A DNA stretch of 50,305 nt from Fusobacteria bacterium ZRK30. Its GTDB lineage: Bacteria; Fusobacteriota; Fusobacteriia; Fusobacteriales; Fusobacteriaceae. The notes beneath the pieces were generated by a model. It was not told where the DNA came from. It made no database searches and saw nothing but the letters and a program-made list of their open reading frames with translations. Location of the stretch: the NCBI GenBank assembly GCA_024628785.1, contig CP102407.1, positions 1-50,305 of the forward strand. The letters run 5' to 3'. The translations under genes were made by a program, and so were the position numbers. Below are positions 8,287 to 44,357 of the stretch, piece by piece (position 1 is the first letter of the stretch; each line of letters opens with the position of its first letter).

Positions 8287-8343
8287 CTTTTTATAAAATA
8301 GCAATAGCTTCTAGCCAGAGCACCGTTCCAAAAATGTGTCCCT

Positions 8344-8741
8344 TTGACAGCCAGGTTAGCTTCATTTGATACTTGTCATGATTGGCCTGGTAGATGGTTT
8401 GAAATCAGTTCTTTGGAGGATTTAAAGGAGGCTGTATCGGTGTGTAACAGTTTTGGGGTAGAGGAGATAGAGGTCTGTAACTTTGAGGGGGAGTTTAGAT
8501 TTGAAGATATCAGCGGCAATCTCATGCTTAATTTTCTTTCTTATCACTTTGAGACCGTGGAGAGTCCATTTTATCTGACGAGGAGTTAGTTGGTTATTAT
8601 TTTGCAGAGATCATTGATTTTCATAGGATACCTGGCATTTTTAGAGATTACTTTGATTATGAGGCTTATGGGAGAGACATCATTATTGGTGGGATCTATG
8701 AGATCTTAGAGAGTGATAGTTGTCTCTACCTTATTTCATAG
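8344..8741 (+). pseudogene. Decayed copy of ardA (antirestriction protein)
   Basis: This stretch is nearly identical to the intact ardA at 43836-44357 but has lost two pieces, each between short direct repeats. The first loss, about 108 bases between TTCATTT repeats, removed the ribosome-binding site and start codon. The second, 118 bases between AGACC repeats, removed the middle of the gene and shifts the frame. The reading frame from a TTG at 8344 runs 81 codons, and the C-terminal part (RDYFDYEAYGRDIIIGG) follows in another frame up to the TAG at 8739-8741. About 57 bases upstream (from about 8302) also match the region in front of the intact gene, so this is a duplicated segment. Confidence 0.9.
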
Positions 8742-8742
8742 A

Positions 8743-8770
8743 AGATAGCCCCTATGGGGCTATCTCTTTA
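8743..8770. terminator. Terminator between the ardA relic and the GIY-YIG gene
   Basis: A perfect 10-bp stem AGATAGCCCC/GGGGCTATCT with a TAT loop and a following T-rich stretch. It overlaps the end of the convergent GIY-YIG gene and can serve both. Confidence 0.85.
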
Positions 8771-9710
8771 ATTTTATAATTTTATTTAAATAATCTTCTT
8801 TTAAAAGCTTTTCAAATCTATCGAAAATTAAGCATTCTTCTATTGGAAATATTCCTCTTTTTTCTTTTTCTTTAGCTAAATTACTTAAATATATCATAAA
8901 AATTTTATAGCTTTCTAAAAATGTTTTATTGGATTTATACATAATCATTCTTATTGAATGTAAATCACTCTCAATCATTTTATATTTTGGATTATGAACT
9001 AATTCTCTTAATGTTGATTTTGAGTTAAAATCACTTATCTCTGTTAAAGTAACATATTTAAATAAATTTCCATACTTTTTAATATATAATTTCTTTCTAG
9101 CTGACTTTGACCCTCCAATATTATTCCATTTTGGAATAATACCATAATTTAATCGATACTCTTCAATTAATGCTCCTTCTATTGAAAAAAGTTCATTTTT
9201 CTTTTCATTTTTCATTGCTAATTTAATTTCATTTCCAATAATTTTATCAAACCCTTTTGGTGATAATTCATTTATAGGAGATCTTACCAATAATGTATAA
9301 CCTAATATTTCATTTTCATTAAAATATTCTGTTATTTGTGAAAATTTATTTCCAGTGTTAGAATTTTGGACTAAACCATTATGTTCTTTGAATCTTCTTA
9401 AAACATTATTTGTAAGTCCTATATAATATATTTCTTTAGTTTCATAATTCCAAAAAAAATAAATACAATTGGAATGAAATGAATATGCATCTTTTTTATT
9501 ACAGACTTCACCTAAAGCTTTTACCATTTCTTTAATTTCATTTTTTTTATAAGATTCATTGATGATAGTTCCATATAAACCTGAACCAATTAGAAATTCT
9601 TTTGAAAATTTAGGTTCAATTCCTTTCAGTACAGAGGTTATAAAATTAATCTCTTTTTTCTTTTCTTCTTTTGTAATATTAATTTGTTTTTCTTGATCTT
9701 TCAGACTCAT
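8760..9710 (-). CDS. GIY-YIG nuclease-superfamily protein
   Basis: A 316-residue protein. Residues about 80-125 hold the GIY-YIG signature as NCIYFFWNYETKEIYYIGL followed by TNNVLRRFKEHN, which supplies the expected Tyr residues, Arg and His; a later EGALIEEYRLNYG can supply the metal-binding Glu. The N-terminal 75 residues and the C-terminal 150 are helical and unrecognised. Freestanding GIY-YIG proteins include homing endonucleases and phage or plasmid restriction-type nucleases. The gene stands alone between the ardA relic and the GC-rich segment, on very AT-rich DNA. Function beyond likely DNA cleavage is unknown. Confidence 0.75.
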   Translation of the reverse strand: MSLKDQEKQINITKEEKKKEINFITSVLKGIEPKFSKEFLIGSGLYGTIINESYKKNEIKEMVKALGEVCNKKDAYSFHSNCIYFFWNYETKEIYYIGLTNNVLRRFKEHNGLVQNSNTGNKFSQITEYFNENEILGYTLLVRSPINELSPKGFDKIIGNEIKLAMKNEKKNELFSIEGALIEEYRLNYGIIPKWNNIGGSKSARKKLYIKKYGNLFKYVTLTEISDFNSKSTLRELVHNPKYKMIESDLHSIRMIMYKSNKTFLESYKIFMIYLSNLAKEKEKRGIFPIEECLIFDRFEKLLKEDYLNKIIKLKR

Positions 9711-9854
9711 AGAAAATCAGCTCCTTTTATTACAATATATAAATTTACTATAATTATAACTTATATTTTTAATATTTAATCAAAAATATCAACTAATCTC
9801 CTCCTATTTCTCAAATTATTTATATTTGTATCCTGATATATATTAAAATTTCTC
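9711..9854. other. AT-rich spacer before the GC-rich segment
   Basis: Contains the GIY-YIG gene's ribosome-binding site (AAAGGAG, minus strand) and otherwise near-pure A/T sequence. No gene or strong promoter is visible. Confidence 0.5.
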
Positions 9855-10515
9855 ATTCCGGGCGATTCTCCGAAAGATTCGGCTGGAGATCAGCTCCTGT
9901 TCGACCAAGTATCCGCTTTCCTCTTTCGTCCTTATTGGAGACGGACTCGGAGGATCTCCAGCCGAGGGGAGCTTACTTCATCCCCCCTCGCCGTTCCCCT
10001 CACACTCCCCTTGGCTACCCCCTCTAAGCGGTAGCGTTCGTGAGGGGATACTCATATGGGGGATTCAGCTCCTTCGCCCTCGCTCGGTGTAGCACCGTAG
10101 GGATAGCCCTGTGACTACTATATTTTATAGCCCCTTCCACTTTTTCATAGAACATTCGGTAGGAATAAGCTACCTGCGTCACTAGAGCCGAAAGTACAGG
10201 CACCTCATAAGCTCCCCATAGCGATTCCTTGAAAGACTTCAAACCCTTCCCCACCCCTCCTGGATGGAATCTCCTGTTCATCCCCACCTTGCGGGTATTC
10301 ATTCCTGGCCTTTATATCCTGCCTTATCGGATATTCCCCCTTCATCTGTAGAGTGCGATCCATATGGGGCAAAACTTCCCTGAGTCAATAAGTACAGGAT
10401 TGGGTGAACCTCTACCATCTCTGCCACCCATTGACCCTCTGGCCAGAAGAACACGAAGTCCATTCCCTGAAGAAGCGATCCTAGGAGTATGGCAGGGATA
10501 AACTGTCTCGGATAT
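9855..10515. ncRNA. Candidate large structured RNA, GC-rich and stem-rich
   Basis: About 660 bases stand out from the AT-rich plasmid. Hand counts give 52% GC at 9901-9960 and 67% at 9961-10020, against 10% at 9721-9780. Many short perfect stems are present: TCGGCTGGAGATC 9879-9891 with 9953-9965; CCCCTCAC 9996-10003 with 10040-10047 enclosing GCTACC 10014-10019 with 10030-10035; CGGTG/CACCG at 10085-10097; GGTAG/CTACC at 10158-10174; TTGAA/TTCAA at 10229-10242; CCACCC/GGATGG at 10251-10267; TGGGTG 10401-10406 with 10425-10430. In AT-rich genomes this contrast marks structured RNAs. Size and plasmid setting resemble the ornate RNAs ROOL and GOLLD, but I cannot confirm a family. The strand is unsettled: TATAAT at 10539-10534 favours minus, the hairpin at 10569-10607 can end a plus transcript. 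Confidence 0.5.
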
Positions 10516-10568
10516 CCTCTTTTATAGTCTAATATTATAGTTTTAGACTTAAAAACTTAAAAGCAATC

Positions 10569-10607
10569 AAAAAGAGCAGATGAATGAAGATAGCATCTAC
10601 TCTTTTT
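10569..10607. terminator. Bidirectional terminator-like hairpin
   Basis: AAAGAG-c-AGATG pairs with CATCT-a-CTCTTT around an 11-base loop, with A and T runs outside. It lies between the GC-rich segment and the end of the broken GGDEF gene. Confidence 0.65.
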
Positions 10608-10649
10608 CTTCTCAAAGTTCTTAATTTATGATAATAAATTTCTAGATAC

Positions 10650-10723
10650 TTTGGTGATGCCCTTTACGGGTACTTTTTTCAATTCAAAACCTATGTTTAA
10701 GGCAAAAAGATCGCTCCGCCTTT
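10650..10723. repeat. Dispersed intergenic repeats (TTTGGTGATGCC and TCGCTCCGCCTTT types)
   Basis: Two short motifs recur in the non-coding parts of the plasmid. TTTGGTGATGCCCTTTACGG occurs at 10650 and in variant form at 12631, 12660 and 43426. A stretch ending TCGCTCCGCCTTT occurs at 10691-10723 and 12491-12525. Their order differs between sites, so they look like shuffled relics of one older region. Confidence 0.6.
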
Positions 10724-10728
10724 CCAAC

Positions 10729-11415
10729 TTAATATTCCACCCTGTTTCTACCGCTATTTTTAGCTGTATAGAGTTTATTATCTACTCGTTTTATAAAACT
10801 ATCCAAATCTTCTTCAAAATTAAAGGATACCACTCCAAAACTGCATGAAACCTTTTCTATATTTTTTATCTGGAGATTATAGATCGATTTTCTTATTCTT
10901 TCTGCAACTAATACTGCAAACTCTAAAGAGGTATTTGGAAGCAGTATCATAAATTCTTCCCCGCCCCACCGGCAGAAAATATCTGTTTCCCGGACTGATT
11001 TTTTTACCAGTTTAGAGATTTCGACCAGAACCAGATCTCCTACATCATGGCCATATCTGTCGTTGATCTTTTAAAAAAAATCAATATCAAACATAATTAT
11101 TGAAAGGTCTGTTCTATATCTTTTGGATCTTAGAACCTCCATCTTAATAACTTCATTAAATTTTAAACGGTTATATGCTTTTGTCAGATGATCTGTTTCT
11201 GAAAGATGGGTTACATGCTCCAGGTTCTCCTCAAGTTTCTTACTTAATTTAACATAATCATTTATCAGAGTTTTAAAAAGATCTCGTTGAATTTTATTAT
11301 GAGCTATCTGGCTTCTGTGCTCAATCAAGAGTTTTAATACCTCTGGGTGATCATTACAGACATCCAAATCTTTTACAACAGCTTTAAATATGTCGCTTTT
11401 TTTTATTTTTTTCAT
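10729..11415 (-). pseudogene. GGDEF diguanylate cyclase interrupted by an in-frame TAA
   Basis: The frame runs from ATG at 11415 to the natural end KNSGRNRVEY at 10729, broken only by a TAA at 11073-11071. In the expected sequence MFDIDFF-K-KINDRYGHDVGD the codon AAA has become TAA; the frame is the same on both sides, so this is a point mutation. The GGDEF domain has the catalytic CRWGGEEF and an RxxD inhibitory site (RETD) just before it. The N-terminal 60 residues are a helical linker without a sensor domain. The start overlaps the stop of the ODP gene by four bases, so the ODP protein is the likely sensor partner. As it stands only a truncated 114-residue peptide would be made. Confidence 0.85.
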
Positions 11416-12248: not shown

Positions 12249-13054
12249 AATTATTTACCCCTTTATTTTGTGATTTAGAAAATTGTTTAGAACTTATTTT
12301 CATACTTTTATATTATTTATACACAAGTTCTCGCTGATTTCTTTTATTATTCAAATTTTTTCTGTATTTTCAAAGGAATATGTTTTTTATCCAGTATAAA
12401 ATAATAACTTTTAGACGTTTCACTTATAAAAAAGGCCATTTTCAATTACTCTTTCCTGAATGGTTTTTTTTTATTACGTTTTTTTCTAAAACCTCTATTT
12501 AAGACGAAAAAGTCGCTCCGCCTTTTTGGTTTTTGTCTTCATTTACTTCTTACCTTTTATCGCAATATTTTTAGTTTGTGAAAATAAACTCCATCTTAAA
12601 ATTCTATGTTTATAGAGTAAATTATTATCATTTCGGTGATACCCCATGCGGGCAGAAATATTGGTAATGCCCTTTACGAGTACTTTAACTACCCTCTCAT
12701 TTTTTCACAAGACTCTTCTCTATACATCTCTAAAGGTCTTTGTTATTCTTTAATGGGTATTTAATGCCTAACTTTCCTAGTTATTTTTTTCGTTTCTTTC
12801 CTCAAATAAAATATAAAACTGAATTCTAGTCCCATATTATTTTCTGTTAAACTAGTGGATAGACTATAATAAGCTGGACAGTTTTTTTTAGTCATATAAA
12901 ATAAATATAGAAATTACATGGAAGTAGATTTTATACTTTCCCATAATTGTTATATTAGAACCAAAAAAAAGAGGTAACATCCTTTATTTTATGATTAGAT
13001 AATTTTATGGTACACTCATTGTAAAGAGTTTTATAAATTAAGAGGTGGAATAAG
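12249..13054. other. Non-coding region upstream of the partition operon
   Basis: About 800 bases without a convincing gene. It holds TTATACACA at 12317-12325, an exact DnaA-box type 9-mer; a hairpin with T tail at 12428-12473 (CCATT/AATGG); the dispersed repeats at 12491-12525 and 12631-12685; and, before parA, a GGTAAC half site (about 12973) and an extended -10 like TGGTACACT. The parA ribosome-binding site is AAGAGGTGG. Confidence 0.55.
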
Positions 13055-43101: not shown

Positions 43102-43109
43102 CCTTGAAT

Positions 43110-43284
43110 TAGGAACAATAAAATCCTTAAAAATCAATAATTTATTGAATTATAGGAGCGTAAATAATTTTTTAGGAGCGAAAAGGACCTTTTTAGGAGC
43201 AATAAAATCCTTGAAAAATAAAGAACTTTAGAACTATAGGAGCGAAAAGGACCTTTTTAGGAGCGTAAATTTTATTTTAGGAGC
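43110..43284 (+). repeat. TAGGAGC repeat array with iteron-like phasing
   Basis: TAGGAGC (first copy TAGGAAC) starts at 43110, 43153, 43173, 43194, 43237, 43258 and 43278. The intervals are 43, 20, 21, 43, 21 and 20 bases, so each gap is about two or four helical turns. Longer units (TTTTTAGGAGCGAAAAGGAC) are repeated within it. It may be a second iteron origin, a partition site, or a multi-site operator for the upstream winged-helix protein. Confidence 0.85.
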
Positions 43285-43307
43285 AAAAAAGATTTAAATA
43301 ACAATAT

Positions 43308-43340: not shown

Positions 43341-43835
43341 ATCCTTCCCCACCCTTCCTGGATAGATATCAGCTGCTCCCCTCCTACTTTCGAAAAATTC
43401 TTAATCTACAGCGTAAATTTTAGTATTTTGGTGATACCTTTTACGGCTACAAACTCCTAGATCTTTATAATTAAAAGAGATACCATAGGTCTTTTCTCAT
43501 TCCAGGCAATTTAATCCAATTAAAAACCTTCCTAAAAGTTAAAGGTTCAGTGGACAGAGGTTGCACCACTTCTTTATTATCCCTTATTTTTAGGTGGCTT
43601 ATTTGGAAATTGTCGTTCACTCCGTTAAAACTACCTTCCCTTTGCGATTTTCCAAATTTTAAAGAAAAATTATCAGAAGAAGCATTGATTTTAATAGCTT
43701 CTAGTCAGAGCACCGTTCCAAAAATGTGTCCCTTTGATAGCTAGGTTATCTTCATTTTTTTCCCACTTCTGAAAAGTTTTTCTTTTATGTTTAGGGTGAT
43801 TCGTGATTCACACTATATTTTAGGAGGTGTTAAAG
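43341..43835. other. Non-coding region with relics, upstream of ardA
   Basis: At 43341-43375 a short stretch (CTTCCCCACCCTTCCTGGAT) matches the hairpin part of the GC-rich segment at 10246-10270. A TTTGGTGATACC-type repeat follows at 43426. At 43692-43757 about 57 bases match those before the decayed ardA at 8302-8360. The ardA ribosome-binding site GGAGGTG is at 43823-43829. Confidence 0.6.
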
Positions 43836-44357
43836 ATGACTATTAATTTATACCTGGCTTCATTTGATACTTGTCATGATTGGCCTGGCAGGTGGTTTGA
43901 GATCAGTTCTCTAGAGGATTTAAAGAGTGCTATATTATCTTGTAGAATTTATGGGGTAGAGGAGATAGAGGTTTGTGATTTTGAGGGAGATTTTAGGTTT
44001 GAAGATATTGGCGGTAATTTCATGCTTAATTTTCTTTTCTATCACTTTGAGACCTTAGAGGAGATCTATGAGACCATAGAGCCTAGAGTTGTCAGAGATT
44101 ACTTCTTACAGTCCTACCAGATAGATGAGGTTTTGTCAGCTTATAGCAGCTCTTCTATAGACATTATAGACCGGGGAGAGTCCATTTTATCTGATGAAGA
44201 GTTAGTTGGTTATTATTTTGCAGAGATCATTGATTTTCAGAGAATACCTGGTATTTTTAGAGACTATTTTTATTATGAGGCCTATGGGAGAGATATCATT
44301 ATTGGCGGGACCTATGAGATCTTAGAGAGTGATAGTTGTATCTACCTTATTTCATAG
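43836..44357 (+). CDS. ardA: Antirestriction protein ArdA
   Basis: A 173-residue, strongly acidic protein. It starts YLASFDTCHDWPGRWFEI, has EEIEVCDFEGDFRF in the N-terminal domain, and ends with YFYYEAYGRDIIIGGTYEI, which matches the conserved C-terminal EAYARDL region of ArdA. ArdA dimers mimic B-form DNA and block type I restriction enzymes, helping a plasmid enter a new host. That the same plasmid carries its own type I system makes timing or specificity of expression interesting. The start ATG follows GGAGGTG. A decayed copy is at 8344-8741. Confidence 0.88.
   Translation: MTINLYLASFDTCHDWPGRWFEISSLEDLKSAILSCRIYGVEEIEVCDFEGDFRFEDIGGNFMLNFLFYHFETLEEIYETIEPRVVRDYFLQSYQIDEVLSAYSSSSIDIIDRGESILSDEELVGYYFAEIIDFQRIPGIFRDYFYYEAYGRDIIIGGTYEILESDSCIYLIS

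Follow-up and report, generated by a model that had tools for sequence, protein, structure and literature searches.

The GC-rich segment studied here lies in a 50,305-nucleotide stretch of Fusobacteria bacterium ZRK30 DNA (the window, meaning the whole of that stretch). In our reading it is a full-length copy of a mostly decayed dispersed repeat, specific to the genus Psychrilyobacter, confined to plasmids and structured in its left half, an interpretation to which we assign a probability of about 0.55. The repeat is so far undescribed (a literature search found no such repeat for Psychrilyobacter), and it is not a single gene. As a relic, it would serve as a marker of cargo exchange among Psychrilyobacter plasmids, and would account for a GC-rich patch that could be mistaken for a gene or for a new class of RNA.

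Extent, copies and decay of the element

Base composition sets the segment apart from its surroundings, with 51.6% GC in 9850-10529 (52.0% in 9855-10515) against 16.2% in 9720-9849, 22.5% in 10530-10640 and 30.7% in the window as a whole. The contrast reported in the preliminary description is borne out, its range of 50-67% GC being slightly too high (43% to 65% in 60-base steps), and its coordinates (9855-10515) fall very near the ends defined by homology, 9849/9850 and 10523-10529. When copies are compared, the same breakpoints come up repeatedly amid unrelated flanks, at 9849-9855 on the left and at 10523-10529 on the right, giving an element of ~680 bp with two defined ends; several copies sharing the same ends within unrelated flanks are what characterizes a dispersed repeat. 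Neither inverted terminal repeats nor clear target-site duplications were seen by eye at these ends, and searches with the joined flanks, one of whose genes is itself multicopy, returned no usable orthologous empty site. Further to the left, the CTCCTACTTTC-like motif near which a loosely conserved extension begins (Table 1) is found directly 3' of a gene terminator in two other copies.

Table 1. Positions of the element, its parts and a related fragment in the window.
Feature	Position	Strand	Basis or remark
Dispersed GC-rich element, full-length copy	9850-10529	- (predicted better-folding strand)	nhmmer profile match; ends recur in other copies
Left extension, loosely conserved, beginning near CTCCTACTTTC-like motif	9801-9849		
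Structured left domain, ~376 nt	9855-10230	- (predicted)	folding z against shuffles
Near-invariant core, 124 nt	9934-10057		column variability
Helix PA, 13 bp	9879-9891 / 9953-9965		perfect stem
Helix PB, 10 bp, closing multibranch domain	9966-9975 / 10208-10217		perfect stem
Nested hairpins: PC (9980-9986/10058-10064), enclosing PD (9995-10003/10040-10048), enclosing PE (10014-10019/10030-10035)	9980-10064		
Hairpin PF (10106-10115/10178-10188), with PG (~10128-10138/10162-10172)	10106-10188		
Right domain, without consistent folding signal	10335-10523		stands alone in copies C1c, C5b and G007:C3:517714
Probable small element fragment, similar to 10243-10293, behind terminator of AlbA-type gene	43341-43392	+	profile match, weak, E 0.29

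The source genome (3.6 Mb in five contigs, the window being contig C4) contains 11 DNA-search matches to the element including itself, distributed over C1, C3, C4 and C5, with no match on the 2.3-Mb contig C2. The 42-kb contig C3 has a full copy (92%); those on C1 and the 92-kb contig C5 are partial. Because C3 and C4 both encode a Rep_3 initiator, both are plasmids; C5 is presumed to be one. A profile search of plasmid contigs and islands located ~19 sites in four Psychrilyobacter genomes: seven in G007 (within 482-536 kb of that genome's own contig C3), three on C1 (at 936-945 kb), three on C5, two on C4, one on C3, two in G002 and one in G005. All copies sit either on plasmid contigs or on a single chromosomal island.

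A DNA search of 61 genomes, including its own, found copies in three of the seven other members of the genus and in none of 53 more distant genomes; neither a protein query nor two covariance models found any among 90 Fusobacteriota genomes outside the genus, the covariance models (R1 and R2, run over 98 Fusobacteriota genomes) matching no genome but the window's own and that of one other genus member. Among genome contigs, the sole exact match to a conserved motif was in one Psychrilyobacter MAG; exact conserved motifs had no match in viral contigs, and a DNA search of plasmid and phage records yielded no match to the element. The weak fragment behind the AlbA-type gene in the window (Table 1) has a stronger counterpart (E 5e-6) in the equivalent position of G007 (L025:7888-7956). 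Between that gene and its terminator (43109-43292), short direct repeats are found around TTTTAGGAGCG, in G007 as well.

Only two copies are full length (C3 and C4), both in duplicated DNA, and most of the rest have lost an end or an internal stretch. These two sit in one duplicated module, together with GGDEF and metallo-beta-lactamase-fold genes, that is also found on C5. Each of the three contigs has a full or nearly full copy. Internal deletions join 10061 to 10361 at CATATGGGG (copy C5a) and 10105 to 10494 at AGGGATA (copy C1a), and several truncations and internal deletions are located at short direct repeats; three copies (C1c, C5b and G007:517714) retain the right part alone, and in copy C1b an independent repeat of 60 bp, ‘unit C’, interrupts the sequence near 10290. 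Substitutions relative to the consensus number 97 from GC to AT and 57 in the reverse direction.

Unit C (~60 bp, with two small palindromes) also occurs in the window, in intergenic DNA at 10608-10672, separate from the element, and in at least 20 places in the genome, including C2. A TPR-protein gene with a conserved terminator (L020:9661-10866 and its paralogues) is present in many copies genus-wide, one of them beside element copy C1b. Contig C3 additionally bears a plasmid-borne CRISPR-like array (L021:151-4320; 63 perfect 30-nt repeats, ~35-nt spacers), whose spacers have no full match among the plasmid contigs and islands examined.

Folding, conservation and coding potential

The perfect stems noted in the preliminary description, including a nested pair, are present (13-bp PA, 10-bp PB, and 9-bp PD enclosing PE, GCTACC/GGTAGC), and folding above chance is limited to the left ~55% of the element. 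The left domain of the window copy has z scores of -3.8 on the minus strand and -2.5 on the plus strand (300 dinucleotide shuffles). Minus-strand values are -4.0 for the C3 copy, -4.6 for C1b and -2.3 for a G007 copy, plus-strand values range from -1.4 to -4.0 over the four long copies, and in all four the domain is more stable than most or all of the 300 shuffles. The element is listed here on the minus strand, the one predicted to fold better. The right domain of the window copy (z +1.0 and +1.8) does not fold beyond chance, as is generally the case across copies.

Within the left domain lies a core in which 4 of 124 columns vary, compared with 65 of 301 elsewhere in 9856-10280 (four long copies; Fisher p = 4e-7); of the four that vary, two (10028-10029) fall in the hairpin loop. 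Simple decay of a passenger would not leave a core so strongly conserved, which argues against reading the element as a plain relic, and the core was probably the part selected or recognized, as folded DNA or as RNA. If functional, the core would offer a small, tractable, genus-specific structured element, for which the full, truncated and deleted copies provide a natural deletion series.

A near-invariant hairpin core with varying loop bases, minus-strand folding of the left domain in every one of the long copies examined (four, with z from -2.3 to -4.6), and a full or nearly full copy on each of C3, C4 and C5 are consistent with a functional, plasmid-borne structured non-coding RNA transcribed from the minus strand, with the C3 and C4 copies active and the others dead; this would represent a new, one-genus RNA class, and we consider it unlikely. 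Helix PG, whose alternative blocks are complementary (TTA/TAA and CCC/GAG), has two pairs changed on both sides, yet some copies are mismatched, the window copy and the G007 copy G7c combining the blocks wrongly. Over five closely related rows, two pairs show two-sided change, against 1.7 expected from shuffled partners. The preliminary description had held that a lack of covariation in homologues would refute an RNA, and the observed level is close to that, at chance, in a comparison of 4-8 closely related copies that has little power. Wobble-type changes outside PG (eight on the minus strand, five on the plus) favor neither strand, and G-U pairs could not be used to assign the strand, because any single transition in a Watson-Crick pair gives a wobble on one of the two strands. 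Also weighing against an RNA are the unstructured right third, the broken state of the majority of copies, and the lack of any terminator or convincing promoter bracketing the element.

ROOL, GOLLD, OLE and HEARO are large structured RNAs of the kind termed ornate (PMC12286853). The element resembles them in being GC-rich, multihelical and several hundred nucleotides long in an AT-rich host, and its setting recalls the plasmid and phage setting of ROOL and GOLLD; it differs in its unstructured right third, its many dead copies, its unsupportive covariation and the absence of an Rfam match. The preliminary description had proposed scanning for these four families, and none matched, even up to E 10 in 9750-10700. 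More generally, Rfam gave no relevant match in the window at the gathering threshold, none that was credible in 9750-10700 up to E 10, and nothing relevant in three other copies up to E 1; no tRNA or tmRNA was found in the window. The ‘large ornate non-coding RNA’ originally proposed therefore survives in part: the sequence is non-coding, hairpin-rich, GC-rich, carried on plasmids and without an Rfam match, but a single RNA gene of ~650 nt is not supported, given ~19 mostly broken copies, folding in the left 55% and covariation at chance level.

That no conserved protein is readable on either strand, as the same description stated, agrees with six-frame searches, in which no clear homology emerged. 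That the segment is instead a protein-coding sequence from a GC-rich foreign source, now decayed and with incidental hairpins, is in our view distinctly improbable. In its favor, some copies retain an open stretch of 60-90 aa, and across the right two thirds frame 0 of the minus strand has an excess of synonymous changes (55 of 141, with 41.5 expected; p = 0.009, one of six frames). The consensus of this frame nevertheless contains stops, the best phase differs between the left and right parts, GC content by codon phase follows no consistent pattern, and the left core is conserved at the nucleotide level, with palindromes. No homologue was detected in Pfam, NCBIfam or PHROGs, nor in plasmids, phages, viral contigs or the 90 Fusobacteriota genomes outside the genus.

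Orientation and association with ardA

Fifteen of the 19 element sites lie behind a gene on the same strand (binomial p = 0.0096), several copies being directly 3' of a terminator T-run, and the gene downstream shows no strand preference. All copies point in one direction within C1 (three copies), C4 (two), C5 (three loci) and the G007 island (seven loci). The sole exception to one orientation per replicon is G002:C5 (in a draft genome), with two copies in opposite directions, which argues against a strict orientation rule.

Orientation is also shared with the antirestriction gene ardA, of which the window contains two loci (8303-8781 and 43486-44357), one truncated and one intact (PF07275). 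Wherever a replicon was found to have both element and ardA, they are on the same strand, and on C3 the element is inverted together with its ardA and the 340-bp conserved leader of that gene. The leader is ~92% conserved across C3, C4 and C5, equal to the conservation of the gene, and has a left-boundary motif in common with the element (TTCTTTT..CATTCC[AG]GGC[AG]ATT).

This shared strand (the C3 inversion included), the shared motif and a left domain that folds on either strand would suit a strand-polar single-stranded DNA element, such as a leading-region promoter or priming site, within an ardA plasmid module. We regard such a role as very unlikely, given the mixed orientation of the G002 copies, the only moderate folding of the ardA leader (z -2.2), the absence of relaxases of family PF03432 from the genome, and a sample of large plasmid proteins in which no conjugation gene was found. 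A broader proposal, namely a new plasmid-borne, strand-polar structured element (RNA or single-stranded DNA) moving together with ardA cargo modules in Psychrilyobacter and having an invariant hairpin core that some factor of plasmid or host recognizes, is a speculative one that we doubt.

Known mobile and repeated elements, and a possible route of spread

Bacterial genomes harbor dispersed intergenic repeats and non-autonomous elements, including MITE-like, REP/BIME and bcr-type families. Like these, the element is multicopy, intergenic, hairpin-forming, devoid of ORFs, often truncated and restricted to one genus. Unlike them, it is far longer (~680 bp), much more GC-rich than its host, strongly oriented, limited to plasmid contigs and one island, and without visible inverted terminal repeats or target duplication.

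Three mobile-element origins were considered and rejected. The element recalls the attC sites of integron cassette arrays in being structured, placed behind genes, associated with unrelated cargo genes and in one orientation per replicon (G002 excepted), but it measures 680 bp, compared with ~60-140 bp for attC, and no IntI-type integrase (TIGR02249) scored above the curated cut-off in eight genomes of the genus, where only generic tyrosine recombinase scores were obtained. As with group IIC introns, several copies lie right behind terminator T-runs, and the size is that of an ORF-less intron; however, no Rfam group II intron model matched, and neither domain V nor GUGYG was recognized by eye. 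The genome contains a single reverse-transcriptase match, located far away on C2. Derivation from IS200/IS605 was dismissed because the genome lacks a Y1 transposase (PF01797) as partner.

If the element is a decayed dispersed repeat, as we favor, it may be a non-autonomous passenger that spread on plasmids by inserting or recombining behind the 3' ends of genes, although no recombinase or transposase could be matched to it. It would then have been carried on with its cargo through segmental duplication, as in the GGDEF/metallo-beta-lactamase-fold module on three contigs, and its copies would now be mostly decaying.

In the window, the GGDEF gene of this module (10729-11415) is split into two frames (73 and 114 aa), while the C5 copy is intact (228 aa) and has a clear GGDEF match. 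The GGDEF/metallo-beta-lactamase-fold pair is flanked, in a cassette-like arrangement, by imperfect 53-bp direct repeats (10671-10723 and 12475-12525) that are ~80% identical.
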